A DNA stretch of 64,000 bases, taken from the NCBI GenBank assembly GCA_002167435.2, contig NHBR02000004.1, positions 1 through 64,000 of the forward strand, written 5' to 3'. This document shows, in pieces, positions 25,507-52,240 of this stretch. The notes under the pieces were generated by a model. That model was not told the origin of the DNA. It saw nothing but the letters and a program-made list of their open reading frames with translations, and ran no database searches. The first letter of the stretch is position 1. Each line of letters opens with the position of its first letter. This DNA comes from Allomuricauda sp. TMED12. GTDB lineage: Bacteria > Bacteroidota > Bacteroidia > Flavobacteriales > Flavobacteriaceae. Position numbers and translations under genes: made by a program.

Positions 25507-25559
25507 TAGAAATTGATGTAATTGCAATTACGGTTGATGGTTATGCTGTTAAAATGAAA

Positions 25560-25637
25560 TTGTCATTTCAGACAAACCCCGAAATTTCCACACAAATTGA
25601 TGGTCAATCTCTTAATGGGCGACGTCCGAAATGACAA
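25560..25637. repeat. Intergenic repeat element with TTGTCATTTC ends (copy A)
   Basis: A 78-bp segment between mdh and secDF is bounded by a perfect inverted repeat TTGTCATTTC (25560-25569) / GAAATGACAA (25628-25637). The flanks extend the match to 13 bp. The ends resemble those of elements at 33091-33139 and 42497-42583, so it belongs to a dispersed family. Confidence 0.6.
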
Positions 25638-25662
25638 TTTAGTTGGTTATAGTTGATGAGGG

Positions 25663-46673: not shown

Positions 46674-46753
46674 GCAGCATAAAACTGTTAAAATTTACTT
46701 TACAACACTCTGTTTAACAAGTAGATGGATTATACCTGAAATCATTATTTATA

Positions 46754-46765
46754 ATTAGTCTAAAT
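46754..46765. promoter_or_regulatory. Regulator box 1 (ATTAGTCTAAAT) upstream of the metal-uptake operon
   Basis: 12-bp box with the near-palindromic core TTAG-T-CTAA, ending 5 bp before the -33 element. Its exact reverse complement stands at 46813-46824. The core resembles half-sites of DtxR/IdeR/MntR-type iron or manganese repressors (family knowledge), and the downstream genes fit metal control. Confidence 0.6.
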
Positions 46766-46770
46766 ATATT

Positions 46771-46801
46771 TTGGATAAACAACCATTGGCCTATACATTT
46801 G
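46771..46801 (+). promoter_or_regulatory. Promoter of the TonB-receptor operon
   Basis: TTG at 46771-46773, 20 bases, then TACATTTG at 46794-46801, a full -7 match. Transcription would start near 46808. The promoter is bracketed by the two TTAGnCTAA boxes. Confidence 0.65.
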
Positions 46802-46812
46802 TCAAAATCTTT

Positions 46813-46824
46813 ATTTAGACTAAT
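46813..46824. promoter_or_regulatory. Regulator box 2 (ATTTAGACTAAT), inverted copy
   Basis: Exact reverse complement of the box at 46754-46765, located at about +5 to +16 of the predicted transcript and 13 bp before the start codon. A protein bound here would block initiation or early elongation, as expected for a metal-responsive repressor. Confidence 0.6.
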
Positions 46825-46837
46825 TTAAAATAATAAA

Positions 46838-49300
46838 ATGAAACATATACTACTCATGCTGAGCTTGGCTTTTTATTCCTTAGCACAAGCGCAATCAGGA
46901 AACATCTCAGGAAAAGTAACAGACCAAAGAAACAACCCTTTGGCCAATGTTAATATTGCAGTTTCCAATACCAGTTTAGGCACAAACACAAATTATTCAG
47001 GGGACTATGAAATATCCGACCTTGCCCCTGGCTCCTATACGTTGACTTTTTCAATGGTAGGTTTTGGAACTCAGAATAAAACCGTAACCATTTATGCCAA
47101 TCAGACCACTAATGTACCGGTTATATCTTTGGTAGAGCGTCAAGAACAACTTAATGAAGTTGTGGTGGAAGGAAACCAAGTGAACAAATTTGCTCGCAAA
47201 GCAAGTGTTTACGTGTCCAAAATGCCATTAAAGGACATTGAAAACCCACAGGTTTACAATTCCATTTCCACCGAGTTGTTGCAGGACCAGGTAATCACCA
47301 ATTTTGATGACGCCCTTAAAAATGCCCCTGGAATCGATAAACTATGGGAGTCCACAGGTAGAGGAAACGACGGAGCAGGTTATTTCTCCCTTCGTGGATT
47401 TGCTGTTCAACCCACAATGATAAACGGCTTGCCCGGCTTGACCAATGGTAGTCCAGACCCAGCAAATATTGAATCCATCGAAGTGATCAAAGGCCCATCG
47501 GGAACGCTATATGGCAGTAGTTTAATTTCCTACGGTGGTTTGATCAACATCAATACCAAAAAACCATACTACGGATTCGGAGGAAACATCTCCTACACTT
47601 CTGGAAGTTATGGATTGAACCGAGTTAGCGCCGATGTCAATACTACTTTGGGCAACCAGAACAATATTGCACTTAGAGTGAATACCGCCTATCACACGCA
47701 AAATAGCTATCAAGATGCTGGATTTAGAAAATCCTTCTTCTTCGCACCTTCATTGGCGTTCCAGGCAAGTGATAGACTTTCTTTTAACATCAACACCGAA
47801 TTTTATAACGGCAGAAGCACTAACCAAACGATGCTCTTCCTAGATAGAGGTTCGCCACTTCGTGTGACCAATTTGGATGAATTGGGTTACGATTTCAAAC
47901 GTTCGTACACCAGTAACGATTTGTATATAGACACTCCAACCTACAGCCTTCAAGGTCAGATGAACTACATTTTGAGCGATTCTTGGACTTCACAGACCGT
48001 AATATCTAGATCTAATGCAAAGTCTGATGGCTACTATTCCTACCTGTACGAAGTAAGCTCAACGGTAGAAGGTCTTTCTGGTGCTCCACTTGAAGACGGA
48101 ATTATATTGGCCCGCTACACCAGCAACCAAAACTCCGAGACCTTGGGAACCGATATACAACAAAATTTTATCGGAGATTTTAATATTGGAACCATGCGCA
48201 ATCGCTTAGTAATTGGATTGGATTACCTTAAAACCAGAACCATTAACAATAGCACGGGCTACGGAAACCAAGGCTTTATTTATGTAGGTCAAAACCCCAA
48301 TGAGTTCCAAGCTGTTGCCCCTGCCCTACACGATTACTTTGGAACCCCAATGGGAACCGGTTTGTACGACTCCGGTGTTTTGACACAAGCTGGAGCGGAT
48401 GCAGGAATTGCCACCTTGGCCAATCCAGGAGCACAATTCAGTGAGGCTGAGCAAGAAATTTTCAGTGCCTATGCCTCCAACGTGATTAATCTATTACCGG
48501 AATTGTCAGCTATGGCAAGTTTGCGTGTGGACCGTTTTTCTAACGACGGATACAATCAGACCGCATTTTCACCAAAATTTGGTTTGGTGTACCAACCCAT
48601 TTTGAACAAAGTATCCGTGTTTGCCAATTACATGAACGGATTCAGTAATGTCGCTCCAGTGACCGAACTATCCAATGGAAACACTTCCGTGAGAGCTTTG
48701 AACCCTGAGCACGCCAACCAGTTCGAAGTAGGTACAAAATTGAACCTGTTCAACGACAAGCTTTCTGCCACCTTGAGCTACTACAACATTACCGTAAGCG
48801 ATATGGCACAGCGAATCGATACCGATGCCAACAACTATTTCTATACCCAAGATGGCGAACAGACCAGTAAGGGGTTTGAAGCGAGTATCATCGCCTCTCC
48901 AGTTGACGGGCTGAACATTATTGCGGGCTACAGCTATAACGACAGTAAGTTGGTAGAAGGCGCTGACAGCTTTACCGGTTTTAGACCTGAGAGTGCTGGC
49001 CCCATGAACTTGGCCAACGTTTGGGCAAGCTACAGATTTACTCAAGGTACCTTGGAAAACTTTGGACTTGGATTCGGAGGTAACTACGCCAGCGAGAACA
49101 AAATCTTCAATAGATCCAATGGAACATTTGCCATTGACGAGTACACCATTCTTAATGCATCTGCTTTTTACGATGCCAGAGACTTCAGAATCACGTTGAA
49201 GTTGGACAATATTGCCAACAAGGACTACTACAAAGGCTGGTCAACCATCAGCCCTCAGAACTTGAGAAGTCTTTCTGCCAATTTCACTTATAAATTCTAA
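46838..49300 (+). CDS. TonB-dependent siderophore receptor
   Basis: An 820-residue outer-membrane receptor. Parts in order: signal peptide ending LAQAQ (~19); CarboxypepD-regulatory-like domain (~22-100; NISGKVTDQRNNPLANVNIA, GDYEISDLAPGSYTL); plug (~125-240; DALKNAPGIDKLWE, YFSLRGFAVQPTMINGLPGL, SIEVIKGPSGTLYGS, GGLININTKKP); 22-strand barrel ending SANFTYKF. The plug pattern matches ferric-siderophore receptors of the FhuA/FoxA type. The operon partners (DUF4198, DUF3325-like, DUF3649-like, PepSY) are classic companions of siderophore receptors. Two inverted regulator boxes flank the promoter. Confidence 0.93.
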   Translation: MKHILLMLSLAFYSLAQAQSGNISGKVTDQRNNPLANVNIAVSNTSLGTNTNYSGDYEISDLAPGSYTLTFSMVGFGTQNKTVTIYANQTTNVPVISLVERQEQLNEVVVEGNQVNKFARKASVYVSKMPLKDIENPQVYNSISTELLQDQVITNFDDALKNAPGIDKLWESTGRGNDGAGYFSLRGFAVQPTMINGLPGLTNGSPDPANIESIEVIKGPSGTLYGSSLISYGGLININTKKPYYGFGGNISYTSGSYGLNRVSADVNTTLGNQNNIALRVNTAYHTQNSYQDAGFRKSFFFAPSLAFQASDRLSFNINTEFYNGRSTNQTMLFLDRGSPLRVTNLDELGYDFKRSYTSNDLYIDTPTYSLQGQMNYILSDSWTSQTVISRSNAKSDGYYSYLYEVSSTVEGLSGAPLEDGIILARYTSNQNSETLGTDIQQNFIGDFNIGTMRNRLVIGLDYLKTRTINNSTGYGNQGFIYVGQNPNEFQAVAPALHDYFGTPMGTGLYDSGVLTQAGADAGIATLANPGAQFSEAEQEIFSAYASNVINLLPELSAMASLRVDRFSNDGYNQTAFSPKFGLVYQPILNKVSVFANYMNGFSNVAPVTELSNGNTSVRALNPEHANQFEVGTKLNLFNDKLSATLSYYNITVSDMAQRIDTDANNYFYTQDGEQTSKGFEASIIASPVDGLNIIAGYSYNDSKLVEGADSFTGFRPESAGPMNLANVWASYRFTQGTLENFGLGFGGNYASENKIFNRSNGTFAIDEYTILNASAFYDARDFRITLKLDNIANKDYYKGWSTISPQNLRSLSANFTYKF

Positions 49301-49309
49301 GACGACAAA

Positions 49310-50026
49310 ATGAAAAAATTCATAGCAACATTATTGCTCATTACCCTGCCCGTACTGTCGGCCTCAGCTCACTATCTTTGGATCGAGACCAACGGTACAG
49401 GGGCCTTGGGCCAAACACAGGAAGTTCGTGTGCATTATGGAGAATACACCTATGGTGTAATTGAAAAAGTGGAGGGCGAAGCTTTTCCATTGGTTTCCAA
49501 GTTTACCCTTTGGGTAATTGCTCCAGATGGCACAAAGACCGAGTTAGGTAAAAAAGCCAAGGAAGACCATTATTTGGCAAGCTTTACACCATCTCAAAAA
49601 GGTGTGTATACCATCGCTTTGAACAACAATGAAATCGATGTGATCGATTATACCCAATATGACTTTGGAATTTTCAAGACACATTATCATTCCACTGCAA
49701 AGGTTCAGGTGGGAGCTGATGGCGATACAAAAACTGCCAATCCTAACGGAATTGTGGTAAAGCAGTTGAAAAACGACGGAGAGGAAATCAAACTTCAAGT
49801 ATTGTACAAAGGTGAGCCTATCGCCAAAAACGAGCTTAAAGTCTATGTTTCCGACCTATGGTCCAAAACCTTGTGCACCGACGATAATGGAGAGGTTTCC
49901 TTTGCCTTGCCTTGGGACACACAGTATATTGTGGAGACCACTACCAAGGAAGAAATGCCCGGCACTTACAATGGTGAGGATTATGAATTTATTTGGCATT
50001 GTGCCACGTATTGTATAAAACGATAA
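49310..50026 (+). CDS. DUF4198-like exported protein
   Basis: A 238-residue protein with a signal peptide ending SASA (~21), then HYLWIETNGTGALGQTQEVR, the typical opening of DUF4198 domains, with Ig-like strands (VHYGEYTYGV, SFTPSQKGVYTIAL, LKVYVSDLWSKTLCTDDNGE). It ends with a Cys/His pair motif IWHCATYCIKR that may bind a metal. DUF4198 proteins often sit beside metal-uptake receptors and are suspected periplasmic metal-binding or carrier proteins (inference). It lies 9 bp after the receptor gene. Confidence 0.87.
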   Translation: MKKFIATLLLITLPVLSASAHYLWIETNGTGALGQTQEVRVHYGEYTYGVIEKVEGEAFPLVSKFTLWVIAPDGTKTELGKKAKEDHYLASFTPSQKGVYTIALNNNEIDVIDYTQYDFGIFKTHYHSTAKVQVGADGDTKTANPNGIVVKQLKNDGEEIKLQVLYKGEPIAKNELKVYVSDLWSKTLCTDDNGEVSFALPWDTQYIVETTTKEEMPGTYNGEDYEFIWHCATYCIKR

Positions 50027-50029
50027 GCC

Positions 50030-50362
50030 ATGGTGACCCTAATTTCATTCCTCACTTTTATCGCCTTTTATCTGCTTTACGGTACTTCCAAAAAGATGGT
50101 CGCCGTAAGTGAGCTGGGCACCGGGAAATGGAAGTGTAAAAACAAAAAAATAGCTCAATTAACCAGTTTGGCCTTAATGATTTTATCATTGGGGCTTAGC
50201 TGCTACTACTGGGGCCTTGGTTCGGGGACGTTCAGTTTTTTTATCCTTTTGATGACAGTTGCCAGTTTAGTGATTCTTCTTGCTCCATTAAGATTATTGA
50301 ACTACCGCTTTTTAGGCATTCTTTTTTTGTGCTTCATCCTTTTTGAAACCTTTTTGTTTTAA
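50030..50362 (+). CDS. DUF3325-like small membrane protein
   Basis: A 110-residue protein with three or four membrane helices (about residues 2-20, 41-60, 64-85, 92-110). It has the DUF3325-type opening FLTFIAFYLLYGTSKKMVAV and a central basic patch KWKCKNKKIA. DUF3325 genes occur next to PepSY membrane proteins and siderophore receptors in proteobacteria (recollection). It begins 3 bases after the previous stop codon. Function unknown; possibly a subunit of an inner-membrane ferric-siderophore reductase. Confidence 0.75.
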   Translation: MVTLISFLTFIAFYLLYGTSKKMVAVSELGTGKWKCKNKKIAQLTSLALMILSLGLSCYYWGLGSGTFSFFILLMTVASLVILLAPLRLLNYRFLGILFLCFILFETFLF

Positions 50363-50365
50363 TCT

Positions 50366-50665
50366 ATGCCAGCCAATAAAAAATATTTGAACCCATCACC
50401 CTCGCAACGATTTGCTAAAATTACCGCTGCCATTTTTGGCGGTCTTCTTGTGGCCGTATTGTTTCACATGGCCTTGGCCAGTTGGTTCAATCATGTAGCA
50501 GTGATCATTACCAGTACTTTTTCAGCATTTATCCTATGGGCCATTTTAATGGTAGTTGCCTTTTTGGGCAAAAACGGCTGGAAAGTCTGGGGCATTTACC
50601 TTTTGGTCAGCCTATCGCTCTTTGTCATATTTTATTTTGGAAACCAAAACAACCCACTTGTTTAA
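50366..50665 (+). CDS. DUF3649-like small membrane protein
   Basis: A 99-residue protein with a basic cytoplasmic start (NKKYLNPSPSQRFAKIT) and three membrane helices (about 18-36, 43-65, 73-92). The middle helix pair is AVIITSTFSAFILWAILMVV. Position and size match the DUF3649 proteins that accompany PepSY proteins in siderophore loci, but the family call rests on context. Starts 3 bp after the previous stop codon. Confidence 0.65.
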   Translation: MPANKKYLNPSPSQRFAKITAAIFGGLLVAVLFHMALASWFNHVAVIITSTFSAFILWAILMVVAFLGKNGWKVWGIYLLVSLSLFVIFYFGNQNNPLV

Positions 50666-50668
50666 ACT

Positions 50669-52240
50669 ATGGGAAACCGCATTTACAATATTTTGTTCCA
50701 TACACATACCGTAAGTGGTATTGTGATCAGTGTAGCACTCTACGTTATTTTCTTCACAGGGTCTTTCTCTTTTTTTAGGGATGAAATCGCAAATTGGCAA
50801 CGTGGACATTTCGTTAGTCAAGAAGATGCCTTGCCAGGTAGTGTGGATGGTCGTCTCAACGACCTTTCCAAAGAGTACAATTTATACGGCCGTGATGTGG
50901 AACTAAGACATTACTACAACGAAAGAAGCATTTCTGTCAACTTGGGGGCTTCGAAAGATTCATTGGCTTCTGAGGAGGACAAAGCACCTATATTTTTCTA
51001 TTTGGACCCGGAATCCAAAACCAAAACGGCCGATTATGCAAGCAATTATCATTTGGGGGAATTCTTGTACCGCCTCCACTTTTTAGATCAAATCCCCTAC
51101 CCTTACGGCAGGACTTTGGCGGGGTTTGTGGCCTTCTTTTTCCTTTTTGCGATCATCACTGGAATCTTGGTACATTGGAACAAAATCGTTTCTAACTTTT
51201 ACACCTTTAGGCCATGGGCCAAACTCAAAACCATGTGGACAGATGCCCATACCGCCCTTGGTGTGATTGGATTTCCATTTCAGTTTGTGTATGCCGTAAC
51301 GGGAGCTTTCTTTTTACTGAAAGGTATTTTGGTGCTTCCCATGGTTATGGGATTGTATGATGGTGATCAAAACCAATTGTACGAAGATTTGGAGTACAAC
51401 CATCCCGTATACGAATTCCAGAATCAAAAATTGGAAAACAATATCAACTTGGACCAATATGTTCAGGAAATGAAAGAAGAATGGGGCGATTTCAGGGTTA
51501 CGGAGACGCACATTTTCAACTACGGCGACCAAAACATGCACGCCGCCATTAGTGGTTATCTGGGCTACGACACCAAACTTAATGGTTTGGGCTACCGTAT
51601 CTACAAAATTGCCGATGATTCCATAGCAAAGGAAAAAGTACCGATTGCCCCAACTTCCTATTTGGATGGTGTAAAAAACATGATGTTCCGTCTTCATTTT
51701 GGCGATTACGGCGGCTATGGGTTACGCGTGATCTCCTTTATCCTCGGATTGGTTTCCTGTTTTGTGATTATATCTGGGATTATGATCTGGCTTGTGGCCA
51801 GGGACAAAAAAAACATTCCGGAAAAACGCCGAAAGTTCAACCAAAAAGTAGCCAATATTTATATGTCCATTTGCTTGAGCATGCTTCCTGTAACAGCTTT
51901 GGAATTTATAATTGTAAAGTTTGCACCAACCGTAAACATGGGCTTTCTCTACCAGACGTATTTTTCGATTTGGTTGGTGGCTACCATATTCTTTATCCTT
52001 AAAAAGGATATTGCCTTTACCAATAAATGGACATTGATTTCTGGCGGTATTTTAGGATTGTCGGTTCCGGTTGCAAATGGAATTGCTACGGGCAATTGGG
52101 TATTGGCAGCGTATCAAAATGGGTATCAGCACATCCTTTTAGTGGATTTGCTCTGGTTGATTTTGGGCATTGTATCGCTTTGGATTGCTTTCTTTAAACT
52201 AAAGACAAAAAGGTCAGAACTTGCTCCAACCAAAGGTTGA
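50669..52240 (+). CDS. PepSY-associated membrane protein (putative ferric-siderophore reductase)
   Basis: A 523-residue inner-membrane protein of the PepSY_TM family. It has the opening FHTHTVSGIVISVALYVIFF, helix 2 with GRTLAGFVAFFFLFAIITGI, TMWTDAHTALGVIGFPFQF, and a second periplasmic PepSY-like segment. RLHFGDYGGYGLRVISFILG and further C-terminal helices follow. Conserved His in HTHTVSG, LHFLDQ, DAHTALG and LHFGDYGG are candidate heme ligands. Homologues such as FpvG reduce iron from siderophores (family knowledge). It begins 3 bp after the previous gene and ends one base before the convergent DUF1801 stop. Confidence 0.88.
   Translation: MGNRIYNILFHTHTVSGIVISVALYVIFFTGSFSFFRDEIANWQRGHFVSQEDALPGSVDGRLNDLSKEYNLYGRDVELRHYYNERSISVNLGASKDSLASEEDKAPIFFYLDPESKTKTADYASNYHLGEFLYRLHFLDQIPYPYGRTLAGFVAFFFLFAIITGILVHWNKIVSNFYTFRPWAKLKTMWTDAHTALGVIGFPFQFVYAVTGAFFLLKGILVLPMVMGLYDGDQNQLYEDLEYNHPVYEFQNQKLENNINLDQYVQEMKEEWGDFRVTETHIFNYGDQNMHAAISGYLGYDTKLNGLGYRIYKIADDSIAKEKVPIAPTSYLDGVKNMMFRLHFGDYGGYGLRVISFILGLVSCFVIISGIMIWLVARDKKNIPEKRRKFNQKVANIYMSICLSMLPVTALEFIIVKFAPTVNMGFLYQTYFSIWLVATIFFILKKDIAFTNKWTLISGGILGLSVPVANGIATGNWVLAAYQNGYQHILLVDLLWLILGIVSLWIAFFKLKTKRSELAPTKG

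Follow-up and report, generated by a model that had tools for sequence, protein, structure and literature searches.

We propose that two boxes on either side of the promoter at 46770-46801 of the window (the whole 64-kb stretch of DNA analysed here) are Fur operators (Fur boxes of the flavobacterial type) that belong to a TonB-dependent siderophore-receptor operon. Judging from sequence and its conservation, we put the probability of this reading at about 84%. The same evidence gives good support to repression in response to metal, exerted through two operators, as the likely mode of control.

A first-pass annotation had described two 12-bp copies, at 46754-46765 (ATTAGTCTAAAT) and 46813-46824 (ATTTAGACTAAT), as exact reverse complements of each other, and direct reading confirms this. 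The exact inverted pair is in fact longer than the 12-mers and comprises 14 bp (46753-46766 and 46812-46825). Further, each copy forms part of a 19-bp pseudopalindrome of 9-1-9 structure that resembles the Fur box of Riemerella anatipestifer. The left box, ATTTAGACTAATTATAAAT, occupies 46747-46765 on the minus strand, at roughly -59 to -41 relative to the implied transcription start. The right box, ATTTAGACTAATTTAAAAT, occupies 46813-46831 on the plus strand (about +8 to +26) and lies within the implied 5' untranslated leader. The distance between centres is 66 bp for the 19-mers and 59 bp for the 12-mers. There are 72 bases from the left box and 6 from the right box to the ATG at 46838, which places both less than roughly 100 bp from the start codon of an iron-uptake gene, the criterion given in the available part of PMC5609570.

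The promoter between the boxes consists of a -33 element TTTG at 46770-46773 and a -7 element TACATTTG at 46794-46801, both read directly on the plus strand. According to the accessible portion of PMC9723704, the sigma-A -7 consensus is TAnnTTTG and spans -12 to -5; the implied transcription start is therefore located at about 46806. That the pair brackets a consensus promoter was thus a sound observation, as both elements fit the flavobacterial type. The promoter at 46770-46801 is absent from an E. coli-type promoter scan, which is uninformative for flavobacterial DNA here.

The gene that follows (46838-49300, plus strand) encodes a TonB-dependent siderophore receptor of 820 aa with Pfam plug and barrel domains. 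It scores 264.8 bits with NCBIfam TIGR01783 against a cut-off of 223.5, in agreement with the earlier assignment of a siderophore-receptor operon. Among the matches listed, its closest named relative is from [Muricauda] okinawensis (97%), which assigns the window to a flavobacterium of the Flagellimonas/Allomuricauda type. Four more genes lie downstream in the same orientation, with gaps of 3 to 9 bases from one gene to the next, and their occurrence downstream of related receptors can be given for 80 loci (the best 80 of 582). A DUF4198 protein identified by Pfam (49310-50026), a probable operon member, is present in 20 of the 80. A 110-aa protein with a DUF3325 match below the family cut-off (50030-50362) is present in 58, a 99-aa protein without a Pfam match (50366-50665) in 60, and a PepSY_TM protein (50669-52240; PF03929, E 3.9e-54) in 62. 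The last of these may, to judge from its family, be a ferric-siderophore reductase.

How much weight can the bare inverted pair carry? The two exact 12-bp copies had been considered very unlikely by chance, a claim that we cannot uphold. At least one exact 12-mer inverted pair 30-90 bp apart is found in 83 of 200 first-order Markov simulations of the window (4 of 20 in an earlier, smaller run), so two such copies are by themselves not unlikely. The window holds them in two places, starting at 46753 and 25557; the second is an exact 13-bp pair at 25557-25640, AAATTGTCATTTC and its complement, whose starts are separated by 71 bp. Pairs of at least 14 bp occur in 3 of 200 simulations and within the window only at the 46753 place. 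Taken alone, the 14-bp pair is suggestive at best. The motif TTAGnCTAA is present three times in the 64-kb window against a mean of 0.94 in 100 shuffles, seven of which reach three. Strong evidence comes from the 19-bp form and from its conservation rather than from the inverted pair as such.

The 19-bp form was scored with two matrices compared at equal per-site probability. The Fur matrix was made from the 11 boxes published for Riemerella, all of them from outside the 80 loci, and the DtxR matrix from boxes upstream of 19 flavobacterial dtxR genes. With the Fur matrix the left box reaches 20.7 and the right box 17.0 bits (maximum 22.7); with the DtxR matrix the left box reaches 7.4 and the right box (46814-46829) 17.4 (maximum 24.0). 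The skeleton ATTTANANTNANTNTAAAT is matched by the left box with no mismatch and by the right box with one. The left box is its sole zero-mismatch match in the 4.34-Mb genome; with one mismatch allowed, there are 12 places in the genome against 6 for a control pattern.

As a comparison set we took named loci that code for receptor relatives, using the best 80 of the 582 that were confirmed. Because these loci are related to each other (49 are Flavobacterium by title), counts over them are not independent trials. In 59 of the 80 promoters the Fur matrix finds the full bracket, that is a box, TAnnTTTG and another box; the bracket is missing in the other 21 at the thresholds used. It is found in none of 2580 simulated promoters and in none of 3514 control stretches taken from the same loci, a number that includes both strands. 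At least one Fur-matrix site is present in 79 of the 80 best loci and at least two in 63, while 305 of the 2580 simulated promoters have at least one and 13 have two. The idea of two operator-like sites bracketing the promoter is therefore borne out by its recurrence in orthologous promoters.

The geometry of the 59 bracketed promoters is also conserved. In 58 of them, the end of the left box lies 25-28 bp ahead of the -7 element. On the other side, the right box begins 4 bp past this element in 40, 6-7 bp past it in 7 and 11-13 bp past it in 12. Box centres are 57-61 bp apart in 46 promoters, 66-67 bp apart in 12 and 78 bp apart in one. The sequences of the boxes are ATTTATAATTAGTCTAAAT and ATTTAGACTAATTTTAAAT-like in Flagellimonas-type relatives, ATTTAAATTAAGTCTAAAT and ATTTTAATTTAATCTAAAT in Leeuwenhoekiella, and ATTTAGAATAAATAAAAAT and ATTAAAATCAATTCTAAAT in Flavobacterium. 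All of them are 19-bp pseudopalindromes of the 9-1-9 type, and the strong half faces differently between genera, as expected of dimer sites and unlike a conserved hairpin.

These data bear on the simplest alternative, namely that the inverted repeat arose by chance or serves to form a stem. The simulation counts for 12-bp and 14-bp pairs speak in its favor. However, the placement of the boxes is kept in most of the 80 best loci and in none of the controls, while their sequence differs between genera, and the strong half-sites of Flavobacterium face the other way, so no fixed hairpin is kept. Conservation largely refutes this explanation, and we find it scarcely credible.

Whole genomes were covered by a search of 17 (the species' own, 10 of the same genus and 6 of the same order), all of which contain matches at E <= 2. 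The search for pairs covered 37 match coordinates selected from the listed matches. The receptor's pair was seen in its own genome and in at least 6 of the 10 same-genus genomes (G149, G152, G154, G155, G157 and G158). In G156, a pair 65 bp apart lies upstream of a gene with a porin match below the cut-off. Four other pairs, 40-62 bp apart, were seen, two in G155 and two in G163.

Which metal-responsive repressor would read the boxes? The first-pass annotation favored one of the DtxR/MntR kind. A metal-responsive repressor is indeed likely, but the DtxR/MntR family does not hold as the main regulator. The genome contains two genes that pass the PF01325 cut-off, on C15 (63.9 bits) and on C31 (35.3 bits); the C31 protein looks MarR-like, by reading rather than by database match. 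The C15 protein has 221 aa, its best solved relative is ScaR, and just upstream of its gene lies a 16-bp even-centred box of its own, TTTAGACAAATCTAAA. The box (C15:126147-126162, locus L032) lies in the intergenic region between this gene and a divergent TonB-dependent receptor, and the gene is followed by a ZIP-like transporter (by reading). Thirty dtxR loci were collected, and the start of the gene was located in 19 of them, own genome included. Within 200 bp of dtxR, the even-centred consensus is matched at 14 or more of 16 positions in 17 of the 19 loci and at 12 and 13 in the other two, figures biased towards the consensus since each box was picked as the best match to it in these 200 bp. 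The presence of a similar box before dtxR in most of the located loci suggests autoregulation. As a count, the relaxed even palindrome (up to two mismatches) is useless, because its 336 matches per strand fall below the 681 of its backwards control; its top matches did reveal the dtxR box.

The possibility that the boxes are operators of this C15 repressor draws on several likenesses. The half-site TTTAGA is common to both motifs, the right box scores high with the DtxR matrix, the dtxR gene itself carries such a box, as do most of its counterparts, and at least one DtxR-matrix site is present in 39 of the 80 promoters (best 80 of 582). Against it, the left box is a poor DtxR match, and of the 80 best loci only 7 show the full bracket and 9 at least two sites with the DtxR matrix, in contrast to the Fur counts at equal per-site probability. 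Nor is the fit of the right box to the DtxR motif kept among relatives. In nine Flagellimonas-type relatives, the right box gives DtxR scores of -0.5, 12.4, 3.3, 3.3, 17.4, 12.4, 3.3, 7.4 and 7.4, whereas its Fur scores remain at 12.5-20.3. Conversely, only 1 of the 19 dtxR upstream regions reaches the Fur threshold. The DtxR-family box of this genome also differs in build from the Fur-type boxes, having 16 bp, an even centre and a spacer one base shorter, and it stands before dtxR and a di-haem peroxidase gene. We consequently reject DtxR/MntR as the main regulator and regard operators of the C15 repressor as very improbable.

A compromise would be dual control, with Fur on both boxes and the DtxR/MntR-family protein also on the right one, so that two metal signals are integrated. 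The right box is readable by both matrices (17.0 and 17.4), relative L049 has the same two scores, and both motifs contain TTTAGA...TCTAAA, one base of spacer apart. Yet the DtxR score of the right box varies from -0.5 to 17.4 among the nine relatives, and this fit is thus under no evident selection. We think dual control improbable, and prefer two Fur operators without a second regulator.

A small separate DtxR/MntR regulon is suggested by an exact DtxR-type box, TTTAGACTAAACTAAA, at C98:27289-27304 (locus L030; DtxR matrix 21.0, Fur 9.1), which is situated some 36 bp upstream of a gene for a di-haem oxidoreductase/peroxidase (PF06537). Several relatives have second DtxR-like matches in frames of about 340-370 aa adjoining dtxR (e.g. 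G131:C1:955917-956531); possibly, these are transporter subunits fused to a DtxR domain. In the accessible literature on the DtxR regulon of Bacteroidetes, as far as its available text goes, no binding site was found.

Other Fur-type sites are present in the same genome. They were searched for with a sequence-only model (R1) built from 40 boxes of relatives, some of them nearly identical to those of the window. The search scored 150 of 3245 first-look candidates, and its site list may be incomplete. It returned at least 14 matches at E <= 10, two of which are the left and right boxes at ranks 1 and 2. Because of the origin of R1 these two ranks are partly achieved by construction; the remaining matches are independent. 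E-values extend from 0.03 to 9, chance matches being included. Five of the 12 matches outside the window, at four loci, precede iron genes: feoAB (C15:104000; FeoB by Pfam, FeoA by reading frame), sufA/sufB (C97:87551), a 106-aa ORF with ferritin downstream of it (C140:51372) and, with two matches (C41:27323 and 27388), a second TonB-dependent receptor. The latter two boxes score 18.1 and 12.7 with the Fur matrix and again bracket a TACATTTG. The other seven of the 12 have no evident link to iron. A genome scan for further sites near metal genes had been recommended, with their absence named as an argument against regulation by metal; since iron genes elsewhere in the genome carry the motif, this argument falls away. 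The short pattern TTTAGnCTAA is less informative, as it has 27 matches in the whole genome (16 forward, 11 reverse) versus 131 for its backwards control, many of them inside genes.

Several further sites deserve mention in their own right. A weaker Fur-type match (C97:76328-76346, locus L177; E 0.37) precedes an apparent succinate dehydrogenase cytochrome b gene (by reading) and is not counted among the iron genes. A strong Fur-type box at C15:27264-27286 (L161/L173) precedes a small frame rich in Lys and Cys (MGKKKDKKKIKKTKLRELPPTGKVKSKCC...), and a similar frame with such a box directly follows a ferritin-like gene in the same-genus genome of locus L210 (by reading). The small frame may encode an uncharacterised iron-regulated small protein. 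In three same-genus loci (L186, L189 and L203), Fur-type boxes stand before a DUF6686-like gene adjoining guaB (by reading; L186 by Pfam scan). The guaB-adjacent place of the own genome is occupied by a Fur-boxed TonB-dependent receptor instead.

The genome encodes four FUR-family genes. The most plausible reader of the boxes is a 156-aa protein (C128; L155:1465-1932) with a PF01475 match of 93.7 bits. Among its solved relatives, the nine best are Fur proteins and the tenth is a PerR. Because NCBIfam Fur models match it only below their curated cut-offs, the name Fur rests on Pfam, on the solved relatives and on the gene neighbourhood. The protein has no CxxC motif (HDHVILTDTGEVVEFCD, by reading), a motif that is usual for the structural zinc site of Fur. 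Its gene adjoins purA (PurA by reading), and the single fur of F. psychrophilum is likewise located beside purA, according to the available part of PMC9331221.

We infer that the DNA specificity of Riemerella Fur carries over to this species, that its own Fur binds the boxes, that binding represses, that the response depends on iron and that the two sites act together. A possible course of events is as follows. When iron is plentiful, metal-loaded Fur would occupy both boxes. The left Fur would abut the -33 element on its upstream side, and the right one would sit just past the transcription start. In the simplest reading, Fur dimers on both shoulders of the polymerase site would then block RNA polymerase from both sides. 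When iron becomes scarce, Fur would leave and the receptor operon would be expressed. The two boxes may co-operate through looping or wrapping; the two clusters of spacing (57-61 and 66-67 bp) rule out a single fixed helical phase as a conserved requirement. Because there are four FUR-family genes, a paralogue could be the binder instead.

There is nothing unusual in a Fur operator upstream of a siderophore receptor. For the conserved twin-box bracket, no description in this class was found in the available text of the open-licence PMC literature. Further, the TTAG/TTTAGA boxes of these genomes apparently serve two or more families of metal regulators with similar half-sites, so their assignment to DtxR/MntR by eye is unsafe. 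A bolder generalization is imaginable, which we consider doubtful as a whole: in Flavobacteriia, Fur and the DtxR/MntR repressor would read a near-identical half-site (TTTAGA...TCTAAA) and be distinguished by a spacer difference of one base pair (17- versus 16-bp core), siderophore-receptor genes of this type would usually carry a conserved promoter-caging Fur twin, and the right box here would be readable by both proteins, two metal signals meeting at one promoter. On the practical side, the flavobacterial Fur box, with its consensus spelled out in the accessible text of PMC5609570, is extended to a marine genus, and the box-promoter-box layout could help to predict iron-regulated receptors in environmental flavobacteria.

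The closest known system is that of R. anatipestifer. Its Fur box, predicted in silico, is ATTTAGAATTATTCTAAAT, and 11 boxes are tabulated in the available part of PMC5609570, several of them poor matches to the consensus. The same portion of that paper reports that purified Riemerella Fur shifted four promoter fragments in EMSA. A Fur box before rhuB is accompanied by EMSA and one for rhuH by a Fur-box mutant (PMC10986502 and PMC11967795, in the parts accessible). The literature is not uniform on this box, because PMC7976709, in its available portion, gives for Riemerella the consensus of the E. coli Fur box. No Fur box was found in the accessible parts of the literature on iron responses of Flavobacterium and Elizabethkingia.

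Like the sites described here, the Riemerella box is a 19-bp pseudopalindrome of 9-1-9 structure (type ATTTAGAAT-N-ATTCTAAAT), and it likewise precedes genes for TonB-dependent receptors and haem uptake in a bacterium with -33/-7 promoters. It differs in the letters around its centre. Binding in Riemerella was seen with promoter fragments, whereas our sites are predicted from sequence. The classical E. coli Fur box (GATAATGATAATCATTATC in the available part of PMC5609570) also has 19 bp, 9-1-9 structure and a place in iron-uptake promoters; its half-site is GATAATGAT, in contrast to ATTTAGAnT here. Finally, the Riemerella table gives one box per gene, whereas two boxes bracket the promoter of the receptor operon described here.
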